A stretch of 45,024 bases of DNA from Lachnospiraceae bacterium (GTDB lineage: Bacteria > Bacillota > Clostridia > Lachnospirales > Lachnospiraceae): the NCBI GenBank assembly GCA_017523785.1, contig JAFWVX010000048.1, positions 1 through 45,024 on the forward strand. Reading direction: 5' to 3'. Of this stretch, positions 6,729 through 42,763 are shown piece after piece; the first letter of the stretch is position 1; the number at the start of each line of letters is the position of its first letter. The notes below the pieces were generated by a model. It had not been told where the DNA came from, ran no database searches, and saw nothing but the letters and a program-made list of their open reading frames with translations. Made by a program: the position numbers and the translations under genes.

Positions 6729-6815
6729 TTAGTTCCTCCGCAAAATTAAAACATCACCTATTTCTATGCTTTTGAAAATAGGCTTAGGGTTTAAATATAA
6801 TTAATTTACTGGTAA

Positions 6816-6846
6816 ATTATAGCATATTTTTAATTATTTTTTTACA
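6816..6846 (-). promoter_or_regulatory. Possible promoter of the surface protease gene
   Basis: A perfect TATAAT lies at 6821-6816 on the minus strand in the very AT-rich gap upstream of the protease gene; the -35 region (TGTAAA, 6846-6841, 19-base spacer) is poor. The roughly 80-base leader carries a hairpin at 6757-6782 with arms CCTATTT and AAATAGG. No recognised riboswitch. Tentative. Confidence 0.35.
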
Positions 6847-6937
6847 TTTTTTTAAGCATTTTTATTAAGAATTTTTTAATTTTTATATCTTAAAATGTTG
6901 TAAATTCTGCATTTTTTTTGGTATTTCAAAAAATCAC

Positions 6938-6966
6938 AAAAAAAGAGTAGGCATTCATGCCTACTC
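6938..6966 (-). terminator. Rho-independent terminator after groEL
   Basis: Perfect inverted repeat with arms GAGTAGGCAT and ATGCCTACTC around a 2-base centre (6945-6966), followed on the minus strand by seven T residues. It lies about 20 bases past the groEL stop codon and closes the groESL transcript. Confidence 0.9.
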
Positions 6967-6986
6967 AATCAACATAGTTAAATTAA

Positions 6987-36241: not shown

Positions 36242-36420
36242 AAAATAGATATTGAGAGACTCGAACTCTCATCTCACCACAAGGGCGAATCTTACCTTCG
36301 TTGCTCGTAAGTCTATAACGACTTAAATACGGACCGCTTGACAACAAATATCTATGCCCGGAATTAGTTTCCTAATTCTACGCCCTACCACCAGGACTTT
36401 TGTGGTTTACCATAATGTAG
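36205..36420 (-). ncRNA. Pseudoknotted structured RNA with tRNA-like arms, probably raiA-motif
   Basis: About 215 nt ending in its own terminator. Helices seen: a 9-bp closing stem (36245-36253 with 36347-36355); a T-arm-like hairpin 36254-36270 (GAGAG stem, TTCGAGT loop); a GTTG/CAAC stem (36300-36303 with 36342-36345) containing a hairpin TAAGTC/GACTTA (36308-36325); a hairpin GAATTAG-GAAA-CTAATTC (36361-36378); and a 12-bp pairing of 36276-36287 with 36381-36386 plus 36401-36406, which crosses the closing stem and so forms a pseudoknot. Size, clostridial host and pseudoknot fit the raiA-motif RNA, whose loss affects sporulation and aggregation in Clostridium. Alternative: a Y-RNA-like RNA. 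5' end uncertain. Confidence 0.6.
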
Positions 36421-37258: not shown

Positions 37259-37864
37259 TTATTCTTGTAAAAGATTTTCAACGCTTGCATGAATACTCCA
37301 TCTTGGAGTATAGTCTATATCTGTAGTCGTGTTGAATGTATCAATCCTTTCAGAAATTTCATCTGCTATATTTGTATATTTGTCAAGGTTATCAAGATAA
37401 TATTTTGTATCATACTTTGGAGTAGTGACAACCTCTACATCATATTCATATGCGCCTACACCATCTGTGCCCTTAATGTATCCTGATGCTCTCTTAATTC
37501 TTGTGTTCTTTACGCTATTTCTACTTCCTAGTTTCAATGCACTTATTAGAACCCTGTAACTTTTGTTTATACTTAACATAGTGTCCGATATACCATTTTC
37601 ATTTTTAGCCTTTTCAATCAAGTTATAAATTTTTTTCTTTTCATCAATTATATCTACCCACAACTTAAAGCAATCATCATAAGTGTACTTCTTGTCTTCA
37701 TTCACAATCTCTCTTGTCTCGTCTTGTTCTGTAGAAATAACTTCACTTTTCTTATGATATTCTGTTGTCTTCGTAAATAAATCTGACTTTGACATCTCAC
37801 TTACGATGTCATCCTCCCACTTTGTCATAGTATTTAAATAATGATAAATCTCTTTTACTTTCAT
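37259..37864 (-). CDS. Unknown 201-residue protein, co-regulated with the MoxR-VWA genes
   Basis: Family not recognised. Mostly helical and charged: a coiled-coil-like N-terminal half (KWEDDIVSEMSKSDLF, KLWVDIIDEKKKIYNLIEKA), a central basic segment (KLGSRNSVKNTRIKRASGY) and an acidic C-terminal helix. No signal peptide or membrane helix. RBS GAGGAGAG. Its promoter has the same palindrome, spacer and -10 layout as the promoter of the MoxR gene 5 kb away, so it probably belongs to the same response. Could be an RNA- or tRNA-binding accessory factor, but nothing in the sequence proves that. Confidence 0.75.
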   Translation of the reverse strand: MKVKEIYHYLNTMTKWEDDIVSEMSKSDLFTKTTEYHKKSEVISTEQDETREIVNEDKKYTYDDCFKLWVDIIDEKKKIYNLIEKAKNENGISDTMLSINKSYRVLISALKLGSRNSVKNTRIKRASGYIKGTDGVGAYEYDVEVVTTPKYDTKYYLDNLDKYTNIADEISERIDTFNTTTDIDYTPRWSIHASVENLLQE

Positions 37865-37929: not shown

Positions 37930-37992
37930 GTTATATCACATTTCTTAATATATTTGTTAAACTCGCAGTTTATTTTATCAAACTTATAGTTT
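37930..37992 (-). promoter_or_regulatory. Promoter and two operators of the 201-residue gene
   Basis: TATAAC (37935-37930), 17-base spacer, AACAAA (37958-37953) overlapping palindrome TTAAACT-CGC-AGTTTA (37957-37972). A second copy, CAAACT-TAT-AGTTTAA, lies at 37979-37994. The first copy matches 42747-42763 in sequence and in spacing to the -10. Confidence 0.65.
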
Positions 37993-38033
37993 AATAATTT
38001 AATTAATTTATAATTTCATTTTCAAAAATCTAA

Positions 38034-39179
38034 TTAGTTCGGCGACTTAAAATTATACACAGGTTTTAAATGATCTACTATAACTCCAGTCTCAACGATT
38101 AGTTCCTTTATCTCTTCACCATCTTTATATGCCATTGGGCTTTCATCAAGTGTCTTTGGAGTAATACAATCGCTATGGATACCCTTCATTGATTCTTTAT
38201 AATCTTTCATTGAAAGTTCTGCAAATGCTTTTGTTCTTGAGTAAACTCTACCAGCACCATGTGGTGCAGAATTATTCCAGTCCTCATTTCCGAGTCCTCG
38301 AACAATAAACGAACCATAAGCCATGTTGATGGGAATTAAAATTGTCTCATCTTTCTTGCATGACACTGCGCCCTTTCTTATAATCATATCATCTTGGTTA
38401 ATATAATTATGAACTGTAGTGAATGATTCTGCTTCGTCAAATCCCATCTCATCAATTATTATATCTGCCATGGTTCTTCTAGAAAGTCTTGCGTATTCAT
38501 CGCAGTATTTTGCAAATCTCAAATAGTCTTCCGCATCCTTTCCATCGATAAAGCTTAACTCTTTATCTTGACCTTCTCCATAACAATGCTTTTCTATTGC
38601 CATTCTCTGATAATATTCAGCAAGCAACAATCCTATATTTCTCGAACCTGAGTGAATGATTAAATAATTTGCGTCCTCACCCTTTTCTATACTTATGAAA
38701 TGATTTCCACCGCCGAGAGTACCAATCTTTTTCAATTGGTTTTCATATTCGACACCAAGCATTGAGCTCGCTTCTTTTGTCATATCAACAATGTAATCAT
38801 TGTCAGAAACTTTTCTATAAACTTCTTTTCTTACTCCACCAGCGCCAGTTGGAATATAATTTCTTATAACTTTATCAAGCTTAAGATAATCTCTATCATT
38901 TTTAGTTTTATTTAACTTAACACAGAGCATTCCGCAGCTTTGGTCTACACCAATTAGATTTGGTATAATTTCACCATTTTTAGGCATTGTGCTAGTAAAT
39001 CCAATGACGGACCCTTTCCCGCTATGACAATCTGGCATTATCCTTATGCTCGCACCATCAAATATAGGATGGTCCACTACTCTTTGTACTTGCTCAACAG
39101 CCTTCTCATCCAATGTCTTCGCATAAATTTTTGCATTTGTAAATTTTCCATTTAGTTCAATCATATTATATAAAGCCAT
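38034..39179 (-). CDS. rtcB: RNA ligase RtcB
   Basis: GTP- and Mn-dependent ligase that joins 2',3'-cyclic- or 3'-phosphate to 5'-OH RNA ends, used in RNA repair. About 380 residues, the short bacterial type. Motifs: MPDCHSGKGSVIG, GVDQSCGMLCVKL, GTLGGGNHFISIE, IHSGSRNIG and SAPHGAGRVYSRTKA (metal ligands and the guanylated His). Start unclear: ATG 39179 is too close to AAAGGA; MIELNGKF (39164) matches the usual family start; GTG 39188 also opens the frame. It follows the HTH gene by about 30 bases, with a TATAAT-like box between them, and is the last of the MoxR-VWA-HTH-RtcB group. Confidence 0.93.
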   Translation of the reverse strand: MALYNMIELNGKFTNAKIYAKTLDEKAVEQVQRVVDHPIFDGASIRIMPDCHSGKGSVIGFTSTMPKNGEIIPNLIGVDQSCGMLCVKLNKTKNDRDYLKLDKVIRNYIPTGAGGVRKEVYRKVSDNDYIVDMTKEASSMLGVEYENQLKKIGTLGGGNHFISIEKGEDANYLIIHSGSRNIGLLLAEYYQRMAIEKHCYGEGQDKELSFIDGKDAEDYLRFAKYCDEYARLSRRTMADIIIDEMGFDEAESFTTVHNYINQDDMIIRKGAVSCKKDETILIPINMAYGSFIVRGLGNEDWNNSAPHGAGRVYSRTKAFAELSMKDYKESMKGIHSDCITPKTLDESPMAYKDGEEIKELIVETGVIVDHLKPVYNFKSPN

Positions 39180-39210
39180 TCCTTTCACAATATATTATAC
39201 TATACTTTTA

Positions 39211-39507
39211 CTACATAAAAGTAATCTTGTAGTTTAACAAATAGCAAAAATCCTGCTCATCGCAGAGCAGGATTCTGTCTATACTGACTTCATAAAGTGT
39301 TGAAAGGGCGATTAGATTTGACATATTAGGAAGTTTGAGTCCCTTTTCCCAATCGTAGATTGCATTTGGATAGTCAAATCCGAAAAAGTTTTGTAAGTCA
39401 CGCACTGCCAAGTTGTTTTTTGTTCTTAGTTTTTTTAATATCTTGCCAGTGCTCTTCAAGTTTACATCTGGCGCATCATAAGCGCTAAAACTCCTTAAAT
39501 CCTTCAT
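39211..39507 (-). CDS. XRE-family HTH regulator next to rtcB
   Basis: 98 residues with an HTH in about 20-75 (GKILKKLRTKNNLAVRDLQ, NFFGFDYPNAIYDWEKG) and a short tail. Size and context suggest a local regulator of rtcB and perhaps of the palindromic promoters at 37.9 and 42.7 kb. Has its own promoter upstream. Target binding is inference. Confidence 0.82.
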   Translation of the reverse strand: MKDLRSFSAYDAPDVNLKSTGKILKKLRTKNNLAVRDLQNFFGFDYPNAIYDWEKGLKLPNMSNLIALSTLYEVSIDRILLCDEQDFCYLLNYKITFM

Positions 39508-39578
39508 ATTATTCTCCTATAGCAATGTGAAGAATAGCCTTATTGCTATTCATATGATGGCTCATGTAGGCATTTGAG

Positions 39579-39607
39579 AATATAACATATTTAGAACTTA
39601 AACTCAA
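39579..39607 (-). promoter_or_regulatory. Promoter of the HTH-rtcB pair
   Basis: TTGAGT (39607-39602), 17-base spacer, TATATT (39584-39579). The -35 overlaps a TTAAACTC half-site (39599-39606), half of the palindrome found at the two related promoters. The leader forms a hairpin with arms GAATAGC/GCTATTC (39532-39551). Confidence 0.5.
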
Positions 39608-39665
39608 TATAATTTCTATAAAATATTTCTTTCAATTTCATTAAGTAAAACTTGATAACAAAATT

Positions 39666-41579
39666 TTATCTTTTATCACTATAGTAAAACACTTCCCCCT
39701 TCGCCTTAAACGGCAACGCACTACCTCTTGGTATTAAAAATGCATGCTCTGAATTTATACTCAAATCTGATTCGATATATCCGTCAGTTATAATAAGTAT
39801 TGGCGCCTTCTTAGGAAAATCTTTTGCCTTTTCAAGTAAGTTAACTGCAGGTTGCAAAATTGTTCCACCTCTTCCTTTAACCACTACTCTGCCAGCTATA
39901 TCTTCTGGACTTAAGTAACCTACGTCATATGCATTTGCATCACAGAATACCACTCTCACCTGTTCAACGTCTTTTGCATTTGAATAACTCGCTATAGAGC
40001 CAAGTGCCATACCGAGATCTTTTGCGGACATTGAACCTGAAGTATCAACTATTACTCCAAATGTTCTAAAACTATGTGTGTCTTTTGGAACAGTTCTTGG
40101 TCTCGGTATATCTGGAGTTGTTGACTGCCTTCTACTTGGTCTCGCATATGACCTATGTTTTTCTATTGGCGAAAAATATCTTTCAAACCAATTGGCAAGC
40201 TCAACGTCCCAAGGTATTGCCGGCATAGAAAGTGCCTTAATCTCTTCTTCAAGTCCTGCAGGTAGATACCCTCTTCCCTTTTCTTTATGATATTCTAGTC
40301 CCTGCCTCAATGCATTTTTGCAAAATTCATCTAATGATACACTTTCATTTCCGAAATTATTATTTCCTGTTCTTTCCCCGCGGCCTATTATATCTCCAGC
40401 GCCATCTCCTCTAAATGTTTCAAAATTTTTGCTTTTCTTTAAATTCCTCGTTATCTCGTCATAAACTTCTTCCGTAGATTTGCCCCTTAAACTTTCATCG
40501 TATAATACACCGATTTTAGGCATTACCCCTACATTCATTTCACACAGCCATAAGTTAATTATAAAATCACAAGCTACATTCCATAAATATTTATCTCTAC
40601 CCTTGCACCTCTCTTCATGGCATAGACCTGCATGCAGATACTCATGAGCTAACACAAACTTCCACTCGTCATAACTCAGTTCACAAACTGGATTTATGAT
40701 AATTTCTCTATTATTAACATCTATCGCAGCAACACTTACTTCATATATATTTGCTATTCTCTTATCGTTTATTATTTTAAATGATGCTGCAAGCCCACCA
40801 AGCAAGGGATAACTACTTATAAACCAACTCGCTGCCTTGCCATAAAGTGTTTTAAGGTCGAATTTACTGTCCTTTTCAACAAATGACTTTTCACTTACTA
40901 TTTCAACTGCCTCTTTTACTGACTCACTTATTGCTTCTGAAAAATCATTTGCATAATCATTTACCCCATCAGCAGGAAGCAAATCATCCAAACCTGCCAT
41001 ATCTAAGTGGTCAACATTTGCAACTCCATAAATTTGTTTGTAATCACTTTTATTATTTATCAAATAATTATATATACTTATCTCATCATGCAAATCCGCT
41101 GGTATCTCATTATCATCAAGTGGTCTAAGTGGTGTTCCAAACTTAATGTCACTTAGAAATTTAGTTATATAAATATCGCAGGCCTTATTCCATATTGATT
41201 TATCAAATGAGGTAACTTTTTTTTCTTTTCCGTCATTATCAATAATCATATAGCCAGGAACTTTTTCTACTGTAAAATGACCAAAGGCAAGATGCAAATA
41301 GTTATGTGCTATTATGAATGCCCATTCTTTTGGTGATAACATAATATTACTATTCAATTGAATTCTCACTCTAAAATAATAACTTTTTGGGGTATACTTA
41401 TCCTTTTTATATTCAAAGCTAACAAATGAAATCAAGTCCTTCCCCATTTCCTCTTTTGTTCTTGTAAATATATCTACAAAACCGATACAATGCTTAAATA
41501 GAGGATGTGATTTAACTATTTTCTTTCCCTCTTCAATATTCTCTAAAGTTTTACTAATTTTTTTAATATCTTTCTTCAT
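39666..41579 (-). CDS. VWA-domain protein with tandem zincin-like (DUF2201-type) domains
   Basis: 637 residues. Two metallopeptidase-like domains of the DUF2201 group in tandem: the second has a complete HEYLH (312-316) with His321 behind and a WNVACD block; the first has HNYLH (92-96), Glu replaced by Asn, His101 retained and WNKACD (130-135), so it is probably inactive. A linker rich in Gly/Arg follows. From about 502 comes a VWA domain with MIDAS DTSGS (512-516), the Thr in GRGGT and Asp599 (IITDG). It forms a pair with the MoxR ATPase (one-base gap), as MoxR-VWA chaperone pairs do. Close to rtcB, so a role in RNA-repair complex remodelling is plausible but unproven. Confidence 0.9.
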   Translation of the reverse strand: MKKDIKKISKTLENIEEGKKIVKSHPLFKHCIGFVDIFTRTKEEMGKDLISFVSFEYKKDKYTPKSYYFRVRIQLNSNIMLSPKEWAFIIAHNYLHLAFGHFTVEKVPGYMIIDNDGKEKKVTSFDKSIWNKACDIYITKFLSDIKFGTPLRPLDDNEIPADLHDEISIYNYLINNKSDYKQIYGVANVDHLDMAGLDDLLPADGVNDYANDFSEAISESVKEAVEIVSEKSFVEKDSKFDLKTLYGKAASWFISSYPLLGGLAASFKIINDKRIANIYEVSVAAIDVNNREIIINPVCELSYDEWKFVLAHEYLHAGLCHEERCKGRDKYLWNVACDFIINLWLCEMNVGVMPKIGVLYDESLRGKSTEEVYDEITRNLKKSKNFETFRGDGAGDIIGRGERTGNNNFGNESVSLDEFCKNALRQGLEYHKEKGRGYLPAGLEEEIKALSMPAIPWDVELANWFERYFSPIEKHRSYARPSRRQSTTPDIPRPRTVPKDTHSFRTFGVIVDTSGSMSAKDLGMALGSIASYSNAKDVEQVRVVFCDANAYDVGYLSPEDIAGRVVVKGRGGTILQPAVNLLEKAKDFPKKAPILIITDGYIESDLSINSEHAFLIPRGSALPFKAKGEVFYYSDKR

Positions 41580-41580
41580 A

Positions 41581-42666
41581 TTATGCTGCTGGTGTTTGAA
41601 CCAATCTTGGCAAATCTCTAACTATCTCAAGCATGAACCAGTCTGGCAATTTATGTTCATCATCATTTGTAACTACCATCTGTGCCAATTCAAAACTTAT
41701 CACAGACAAATCTTTAATAAGCGCTTTTGCCCTATGAGTTAGGAATTGAGCATCTTTACTCATTTTTGTTTTATCTTCTGGAAGTTCTGTGACAAGCTTT
41801 CCTCTAAATGACTGTGATAAGAAATATAAAACATCTCTATCCTCTGGTTTATCTGGCCATCTCATGTCACCTTTAATAATGTCATTTAACATATGTTTAT
41901 TACTTAACTGCTTTGTATATGCTATAAACATACCAGCATGACTTGAAGAAACACATCCATAAACTATCGCTTTCAAAAATTCTGAATCAATATCTTTACT
42001 CTCCCCATTTACAACTTCTCCAGCATGACACTCTTTTAATGCATCACTTAGCATATGCCAAGAACGAGGTGTAGAATATGGTTCCTCTGTTTTTGGCGGC
42101 TCAGAAAATAAATGGTCAGGTCTTTCAGTTATATAATCAATCACCCACTTATGGATATTATTTTCATATGCCCAGCTTATCCATTGGTTCACATTTACTT
42201 TTAACTCCACATGAAACATTCTATTTATCAAAGCCGATGACATAGTTTTAACTATTGCAGAATCTTGTTGTCTATTTCCCGCGCCAATTACGACTGAGCC
42301 TTGTGGCAAATGATATTCTCCTATTCTTCTCTCATGTATCAAACTATAAAATGCTTTCTGCACTTCTTGCGAGCATGCGTTTAATTCATCAAGAAATAAA
42401 ACATAGGGCTCTTTTCTTGCTATCATCTTTGGTGGCAAAAACTCTGAGGTCTCTCCTTTTATCTGCGGTATGCCAATTATATCCTCAGGTGCAAGTTGAC
42501 TGCCAAGTAGCGAAACACATGGAAGTCCAATCTCATTTGCAAATTTTTCAACCAAAGCCGACTTGCCTATGCCTGGTGCTCCCCATATGAACACCGGTCT
42601 TATAGGTGCGACATTTAATAGTATCTCCAACAATTCATTTTGATTTACTTTTAATGCTAAATTCAT
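41581..42666 (-). CDS. MoxR-type AAA+ ATPase
   Basis: 361 residues. Walker A GAPGIGKS (29-36), Walker B VLFLDELNAC, sensor 1 VIGAGNRQQD; arginine-rich finger region NRMFHVELKV. MoxR ATPases act with VWA proteins to insert metal or remodel partners; the VWA protein is directly downstream. RBS TAGGAG. Upstream lie a hairpin and a palindrome-bearing promoter. Confidence 0.93.
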   Translation of the reverse strand: MNLALKVNQNELLEILLNVAPIRPVFIWGAPGIGKSALVEKFANEIGLPCVSLLGSQLAPEDIIGIPQIKGETSEFLPPKMIARKEPYVLFLDELNACSQEVQKAFYSLIHERRIGEYHLPQGSVVIGAGNRQQDSAIVKTMSSALINRMFHVELKVNVNQWISWAYENNIHKWVIDYITERPDHLFSEPPKTEEPYSTPRSWHMLSDALKECHAGEVVNGESKDIDSEFLKAIVYGCVSSSHAGMFIAYTKQLSNKHMLNDIIKGDMRWPDKPEDRDVLYFLSQSFRGKLVTELPEDKTKMSKDAQFLTHRAKALIKDLSVISFELAQMVVTNDDEHKLPDWFMLEIVRDLPRLVQTPAA

Positions 42667-42683
42667 TTATTAACTCCTAAATA

Positions 42684-42707
42684 AAATCCCATCTTGTGAT
42701 GGGATTT
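42684..42707 (-). terminator. Hairpin: terminator of the permease gene and head of the MoxR mRNA
   Basis: Arms AAATCCCATC and GATGGGATTT around ACAA, then TTATTT. It lies just after the MoxR start site predicted from the -10 box, so the MoxR mRNA would begin with it: it may stabilise or attenuate that mRNA and also end upstream transcription. Confidence 0.7.
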
Positions 42708-42719
42708 AAATTATTATTC

Positions 42720-42763
42720 ATTATAACATTTATATTTAATTTTTTGTTAAACTCATAGTTTAA
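42720..42763 (-). promoter_or_regulatory. Promoter and palindromic operator of the MoxR-VWA genes
   Basis: Perfect palindrome TTAAACT-ATG-AGTTTAA (42763-42747), AACAAA, 17-base spacer, TATAAT (42725-42720). No consensus -35, so an activator at the palindrome is likely. Same layout at 37.93-37.97 kb. Confidence 0.7.

Follow-up and report, generated by a model that had tools for sequence, protein, structure and literature searches.

Results

Gene cluster and putative operators. The window that we analyzed is the whole of a 45,024-nucleotide stretch of contig JAFWVX010000048.1, from a Lachnospiraceae bacterium whose assembly (GCA_017523785.1) has 48 contigs and 1,215,966 bp and is 56% complete. 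Between 37.2 and 42.7 kb it carries five genes, all on the minus strand: moxR, a DUF2201 VWA gene, a gene for an XRE-family helix-turn-helix (HTH) protein, the RNA ligase gene rtcB, and a gene for a 201-residue protein. In this study, we describe a 17-bp palindrome that stands at one fixed distance from the -10 hexamer of moxR, of rtcB, and of the gene for the 201-residue protein, and we propose that the HTH protein is its binder. The genes and the putative operators are as follows.

42747 to 42763, minus strand: putative operator TTAAACTATGAGTTTAA of the moxR-VWA promoter, followed by 21 bases (CAAA plus 17) and TATAAT (42720 to 42725)
41581 to 42666, minus strand: MoxR-type AAA+ ATPase, 361 residues (AAA_5, 54 bits)
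39666 to 41579, minus strand: metallopeptidase/VWA protein, DUF2201, 637 residues, starting one base past moxR on the same strand
39211 to 39507, minus strand: XRE-family HTH protein, 98 residues, proposed operator-binding regulator
39221 to 39237, minus strand: third putative operator, TTAAACTACAAGATTAC, directly before rtcB, with two mismatches, followed by 21 bases and TATAAT (39194 to 39199)
38034 to 39188, minus strand: RtcB RNA ligase, open reading frame (ORF) of 384 residues from a GTG codon at 39188 (PF01139, 184 bits)
37978 to 37994, minus strand: second palindrome at the promoter of the 201-residue protein gene, TTAAACTATAAGTTTGA, located 21 bp farther upstream than the proximal palindrome
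37957 to 37973, minus strand: putative operator ATAAACTGCGAGTTTAA of the 201-residue protein gene, followed by 21 bases (CAAA plus 17) and TATAAC (37930 to 37935)
37259 to 37864, minus strand: 201-residue protein without a named family

Three gene starts share the palindrome and its distance from the -10 hexamer. The first-pass annotation of this DNA had described the moxR promoter as a palindrome followed by CAAA, 17 bases, and TATAAT, and the promoter of the 201-residue protein gene as the same layout with TATAAC and a second palindrome; all of these elements were located, on the minus strand, at 42720 to 42763 and 37930 to 37994, respectively. It had placed rtcB in the proposed small regulon only with a "perhaps," having overlooked the site that this gene has of its own. 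The element common to the three genes is TTAAACT-N3-AGTTTAA, exactly 21 bases, and TATAAY. CAAA is present at the moxR site and at that of the 201-residue protein gene and is absent from the rtcB site; hence, it does not belong to the element, and the constant feature is the 21-base distance. The offset between the two palindromes at the promoter of the 201-residue protein gene (37957 to 37994) is exactly 21 bp, or about two turns of the helix, which suggests that two dimers may sit next to each other.

That such identical spacing would be hard to obtain by chance was borne out in the whole assembly. When the palindrome, with one inner base and the last base left free, was searched for together with the 21-base spacer and TATAA, three places matched with one mismatch or fewer, and they were the starts of moxR, rtcB, and the gene for the 201-residue protein; the three next-best places had two mismatches, and a control with the spacer one base longer found no place at two mismatches or fewer. 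The palindrome alone, at one mismatch or fewer, occurred at four places in the assembly, three of them here and the fourth within an ORF on contig C11.

The HTH protein belongs to a family often linked to rtcB. An HTH_3 domain (24.6 bits against a Pfam cutoff of 23) makes the 98-residue protein a member of the XRE/Cro-cI family, and no sensor domain was detected in it; its profile matched six solved sequences, among them 3OP9 (E value of 5.6e-5), 9SF2 (2.8e-4), and the P22 c2 repressor 2R1J (0.0015). Relatives at an E value of 1e-8 or better were present in 130 of 397 genomes of the family, its own genome counted, and rtcB lay within 1.5 kb of such a relative at 16 of the 29 non-self loci fetched. 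A larger set of 74 HTH loci was assembled from a first batch of 20, 17 of which were selected for the presence of rtcB, and a later batch of 54, taken mostly in rank order; four loci picked for their motif (L289 to L292) were left out. RtcB was found at 29 of the 74 (the 17 chosen loci and 12 of the 54). The usual order in these relatives is rtcB-HTH, and the window has the reverse, with the HTH gene immediately upstream of rtcB. A second family, of 168 residues, occurred at 6 of the 74 loci and is found together with certain HTH genes of the TTAAACT type and their operators (L147:4019-4525, L288:2748-3251, and L298:4097-4603); the L147 member, on which this was tested, matched no Pfam or NCBIfam name.

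Similar sites occur at relatives' loci. The 74 HTH loci were scanned for TTNNACT-N3-AGTNNAA with at most one mismatch, a -10 hexamer with at most one mismatch, and a spacing of 20 to 23 bases. This gave 37 hits in 33 loci (11 of the first 20 and 22 of the later 54), usually with a 22-base spacer, against a mean of 3.5 hits (maximum, 10) in a mean of 3.2 loci (maximum, 9) for 99 permuted half-sites on the same loci. In an alignment of 30 sites, selected for the 22-base spacer and TGA, the pattern read TT..ACT...AGT..AATGACA, then TGn TATNNT, the palindrome abutting a near-consensus -35 hexamer (aTGACA). At rtcB loci the sites lie about 290 to 620 bp ahead of rtcB; no such palindrome was seen in the 250 bp before relatives' rtcB genes because the promoter sits further upstream.

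When 240 genomes were searched with the TTATAC form, 36 of them yielded 44 sites in all; the reversed pattern, used as a control, yielded 12. Of the 44, 25 were no more than 2.5 kb from an HTH gene, two more stood beside an HTH gene, and two preceded rtcB. Among the 15 that had neither gene nearby, one precedes a microbial PARG gene (L345), and the others had no evident target where they were examined. At 88 MoxR loci (8 from the family and 80 from GTDB, two or more contigs being common to both), TTNAACT at a spacing of 21 or 22 bases gave 12 hits in 9 loci, some of them the two strands of one site, or in 8 loci if L040 and L233 are one contig, as they appear to be; 30 permuted controls gave a mean of 0.4 hits and a maximum of 2. 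At an E value of 1e-60 or better, the moxR gene was found in none of 11 congeners.

The recognition helix and the operator vary together. Where a site and an HTH gene lay near each other on the same strand, xTPQ helices went with TTATACT in 24 of 25 cases, the exception (L300) being separated by 2.6 kb; the helices ENPQ, EQPQ, and DYPN (the last that of the window), which have N, Q, or Y in second place, went with TTAAACT in 5 of 5 (Fisher test, P = 4e-5). We take this second-place residue to correspond to a base-contacting position of P22 c2-type repressors. In a table of 38 sites, base 4 of the right half was T in 25 cases and A in 1 for helices with T in that place, and A in 10, G in 1, and T in 1 for the others (P = 3e-7, a value that is uncorrected and ignores relatedness). 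For YHW helices, base 3 of the right half was altered in 4 of 4 cases, compared to 6 of 34 for the others (P = 0.003). Division of the residues into acidic and other classes had given a P value of 2e-4 and was replaced by the better-fitting residue 2 of the helix.

The genomes of the MoxR loci were also compared. A close HTH relative (E value of 1e-20 or better) was present in all 10 MoxR genomes with sites and in 7 of 14 without them (P = 0.019, with the threshold set afterwards); the 10 include two, those of L190 and L207, that have the palindrome without a matching -10 hexamer.

RNA-repair genes lie behind the sites. Behind such sites or near these HTH genes, Pfam and NCBIfam profiles identified RtcB, RlaP, PrfH, RNA ligase, PARG, calcineurin-like phosphoesterase, and KptA/Tpt1 genes; MoxR-VWA genes also lie behind such sites. 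MoxR-VWA pairs had RtcB in the fetched stretch at 5 of 8 family loci and 27 of 80 GTDB loci, many of whose contigs are short. Given RNA-repair genes at such sites and RtcB beside MoxR-VWA, the MoxR-VWA pair, RtcB, and the 201-residue protein of the window make sense as one RNA-repair unit. tRNA genes were present in 9 of 25 scanned loci; in some, tRNA clusters on the same strand immediately precede or follow rtcB-HTH (L141:1519-1853, L145:4750-5150 and 6732-6982, and L143:4880-5105). At another locus, a drum RNA (RF02958, L234:2891-3001) begins about 55 bases after the -10 hexamer of an operator-type promoter whose palindrome is at 2791.

Further features of the cluster. Three more elements were located in the window.

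42684 to 42707, minus strand: hairpin AAATCCCATC-ACAA-GATGGGATTT in the moxR leader, between the -10 hexamer and the start codon (z score of -3.9)
39579 to 39607, minus strand: HTH promoter, TTGAGT-N17-TATATT, with the half-site AGTTTAA (39598 to 39604) only
39249 to 39274, minus strand: hairpin of an intrinsic terminator, lying within the 3'-terminal part of the HTH ORF and ahead of the rtcB promoter (z score of -4.9)

The half-site in the HTH promoter does overlap the -35 hexamer, as had been claimed; it carries no significance, because the window holds 26 copies of the 7-mer AGTTTAA (11 on the plus and 15 on the minus strand). With a separate promoter for the HTH gene and a terminator hairpin ahead of the rtcB promoter, regulator and target look like separate units. 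The hairpin in the moxR leader is stable, lies just past the expected transcript start, and was listed as terminator-like on the plus strand only; it is possibly an attenuator with a weak T-tract or the end signal of the upstream transporter gene. In RtcB, PF01139 covers the full domain (profile positions 1 to 425 of 426), and comparison with relatives indicates that the true start is probably the ATG at 39164.

The 201-residue protein had no family in Pfam, NCBIfam, or PADLOC, and its single match in PHROGs was weak (E value of 0.13) and of unknown function. Of 150 genomes of the family that were searched, 3 others hold a relative, as do 22 viral contigs (L358 to L379), 14 of which exceed 85 kb; one of the 22, L368, holds RtcB too, and an RtcB query against the viral contigs found no relative. 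Downstream of the gene, at 36246 to 36353 on the minus strand, lies a weak tRNA-like match (Rfam, 24.3 bits against a cutoff of 29; E value of 0.19) for which ARAGORN was negative.

A leader RNA precedes rtcB in many relatives. We treat this observation as a lead outside the main finding. In many relatives, a leader of 200 to 300 nucleotides runs from the promoter to rtcB, with a conserved terminator, CCGCTTATC...GGCGG-T, at its end; the rtcB gene of the window is not preceded by one. Leaders of this kind, before rtcB or the HTH gene, lie at L140:3532-3820, L143:6690-6985, L145:6985-7268, L352:1853-2126, and 16 other places, and they contain, in order, a local hairpin, GGAAAGGA, a small ORF some 45 codons long, and the terminator CCGCTTATC...GATAGGCGG-T. 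In several, the 5' end has GATAAGCGG, which is complementary to the first terminator arm and is a possible antiterminator. A terminator-like hairpin by a rule of our own was present at 33 of 57 sites, some of them not before rtcB, and a GGAAAGG-start codon small ORF was present at 24 of the 57. RNAalifold, run on 20 leaders picked for holding the hairpin, returned that hairpin only, with 11 pairs, 5 of which have two-sided changes. At the gathering threshold, Rfam named no such RNA in L129, L131, L132, L134, L137, L140, L143, or L145.

Discussion

Based on the spacing and linkage data reported here, we consider it probable that the palindromes are operators through which the XRE-family protein encoded at 39211 to 39507 controls an RNA-repair regulon. 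The first-pass annotation had named this protein as the natural candidate binder, and its proposal is strengthened by the linkage of HTH relatives to rtcB, by the sites at nearly half of the larger set of HTH loci, and by the covariation of helix and operator. It can be envisioned that an HTH dimer occupies the 17-bp site, next to the -35 region or partly within it, and thereby sets the transcription of three units jointly: rtcB, moxR-VWA, and the gene for the 201-residue protein. The window would then be the local form of a wider Lachnospiraceae system of small, often RtcB-linked XRE proteins with palindromic operators at a fixed distance, whose targets would include rtcB, RNA ligase, PARG, phosphoesterase, MoxR-VWA, and RtcB2 genes.

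Several results weigh against this proposal. No site was found at the threshold used in 41 of the 74 HTH loci, and a few of the 37 hits look chance-like (L132, which is on the opposite strand of a true site; L252; L264, plus strand; and L297). The window itself departs from its relatives in having a 21-base instead of a 22-base spacer and in lacking TGACA, and the HTH gene's own promoter carries a half-site only. The expectation that the palindrome would recur in relatives' promoters held at 9 MoxR loci and failed at the other 79 of the 88, where no TTNAACT-type site was found, and at the relatives of the gene for the 201-residue protein, which have no site at their start; the looser TTNNACT form, with 15 hits in 11 MoxR loci, was not above its controls (mean, 5.6 hits; maximum, 13). 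Across the family, the TTAAACT form of the window at three or fewer mismatches gave mostly noise, with matches in 141 of 397 genomes and a reversed control that looked similarly frequent (not tallied), and only matches next to HTH or MoxR genes were pursued. The Fisher values ignore kinship, the helix residue was selected after inspection, and two rows of the covariation table (L290 and L353) come from loci fetched for their motif. Finally, among the HTH loci read, an N-type helix was present in only 3 of the 10 MoxR genomes with sites (G118, G025, and G728, whose HTH protein is 42% identical to that of the window); G112 has another non-T helix, and the remaining six have T in second place. 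This last comparison is weak either way, because it covers only the higher-ranked HTH genes of those genomes.

Some of these points would also suit a different explanation, namely, that the sites are real and are bound by a regulator encoded elsewhere, the HTH gene being merely a fellow RNA-repair neighbor. The missing full site at the HTH promoter, the scarcity of N-type helices in the MoxR genomes, and the fact that at most site-bearing MoxR loci the fetched stretch holds no HTH gene all agree with it; covariation between helix and operator argues against it, as does the presence of a close HTH relative in every site-bearing MoxR genome compared with half of the others, and we regard it as unlikely. 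It is far less likely still that the sites arose by chance in a genome rich in A and T or that they are copies of a single promoter that was duplicated in the cluster. At three mismatches, the palindrome alone was not enriched in the window (15 occurrences, near the shuffled mean of 10.5, with a standard deviation of 3.3), and the moxR spacer and that of the 201-residue protein gene share CAAA and about 12 of 21 bases, which is compatible with an old duplication. Against this explanation, matches with the exact spacing were confined, assembly-wide, to the three gene starts, the rtcB spacer is unlike the other two, and similar sites stand at relatives' HTH loci; a duplicated promoter could, moreover, still be regulated.

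If the HTH protein is indeed the binder, acting at the -35 region as the sequences suggest, the direction of its action has to be considered. With the transcript start assumed to lie 7 bases after the -10 hexamer, the window operators span about -50 to -34 and are centered at about -42, which places them in the class II position of a lambda cI-like activator; the phage lambda operator OR2 at PRM is about 17 bp long and centered near -42. The window promoters also have poor -35 hexamers at a spacing of 16 to 18 bases and keep a strict 21-base register. For these three reasons, by analogy with lambda cI, activation may be slightly favored over repression. A plain repressor, in which a dimer sitting on the -35 region would keep RNA polymerase out until released by RNA damage, nevertheless comes close to an even chance. 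The TTATACT-class relatives, with a near-consensus -35 hexamer, a 17-base spacer, and a TGn extended -10 element, need no activator, and their aTGACA hexamer would fit repression equally well; the poor -35 hexamers and strict register of the window fit an activator better, and the lack of a detectable sensor domain in the 98-residue protein also speaks against a repressor of this kind.

The proposed system is reminiscent of two known RtcB systems. In the Salmonella rtcBA operon (rsr-yrlBA-rtcBA), the regulator RtcR, an activator of CARF-AAA+-HTH architecture, binds tRNA fragments (PMC7790460). The likeness is that an rtcB RNA ligase gene stands under a dedicated regulator, as proposed here; the difference is that the window has a 98-residue XRE protein, TATAAT-type promoters, and a 17-bp palindrome. 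No CARF-AAA+-HTH protein was found among the neighboring window genes scanned, to which the search for RtcR was confined. By analogy with RtcR, broken RNA would be the obvious candidate for the signal (PMC7790460). Likewise, the RtcB2-PrfH ribosome-repair module employs an RtcB-family ligase (PMC9223846), and RtcB2-like and prfH genes lie near MoxR-VWA in some relatives; unlike RtcB2, the RtcB of the window scored 79.6 bits against a TIGR03073 cutoff of 271.8, and no PrfH or RF-1-type protein was found among the window neighbors scanned. The P22 c2 and lambda cI repressors share with the window an XRE/Cro-cI domain and a short palindromic operator; the HTH protein of the window differs in having 98 residues only, with no C-terminal oligomerization or cleavage domain, and the system here stands with RNA-repair genes and has mostly single sites. 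A search of titles and abstracts, whose coverage was incomplete and left two likely relevant papers outside, found no description of an XRE/operator system for the control of RtcB.

We tentatively extend these observations to a Lachnospiraceae RNA-damage response, an idea that we rate somewhat below an even chance. In it, an RtcB-linked family of mini-XRE proteins with helix-matched operators would switch a whole RNA-repair regulon, composed of RtcB, ATP-dependent RNA ligase, PARG, phosphoesterases, spare tRNA genes, MoxR-VWA, RtcB2-PrfH, and the phage-shared 201-residue protein. In many members, attenuation at the leader terminator before rtcB would be added, acting as a second, RNA-level sensor that decides on ligase production.

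To our knowledge, it is not known how bacteria that lack RtcR sense broken RNA and switch on RtcB. A defined operator and a candidate regulator make this question directly testable. The operator also offers a DNA handle for finding unannotated RNA-repair genes, such as those for the 201-residue protein and the 168-residue partner family, and the finding ties MoxR-VWA pairs, whose purpose is unknown, to RNA repair.

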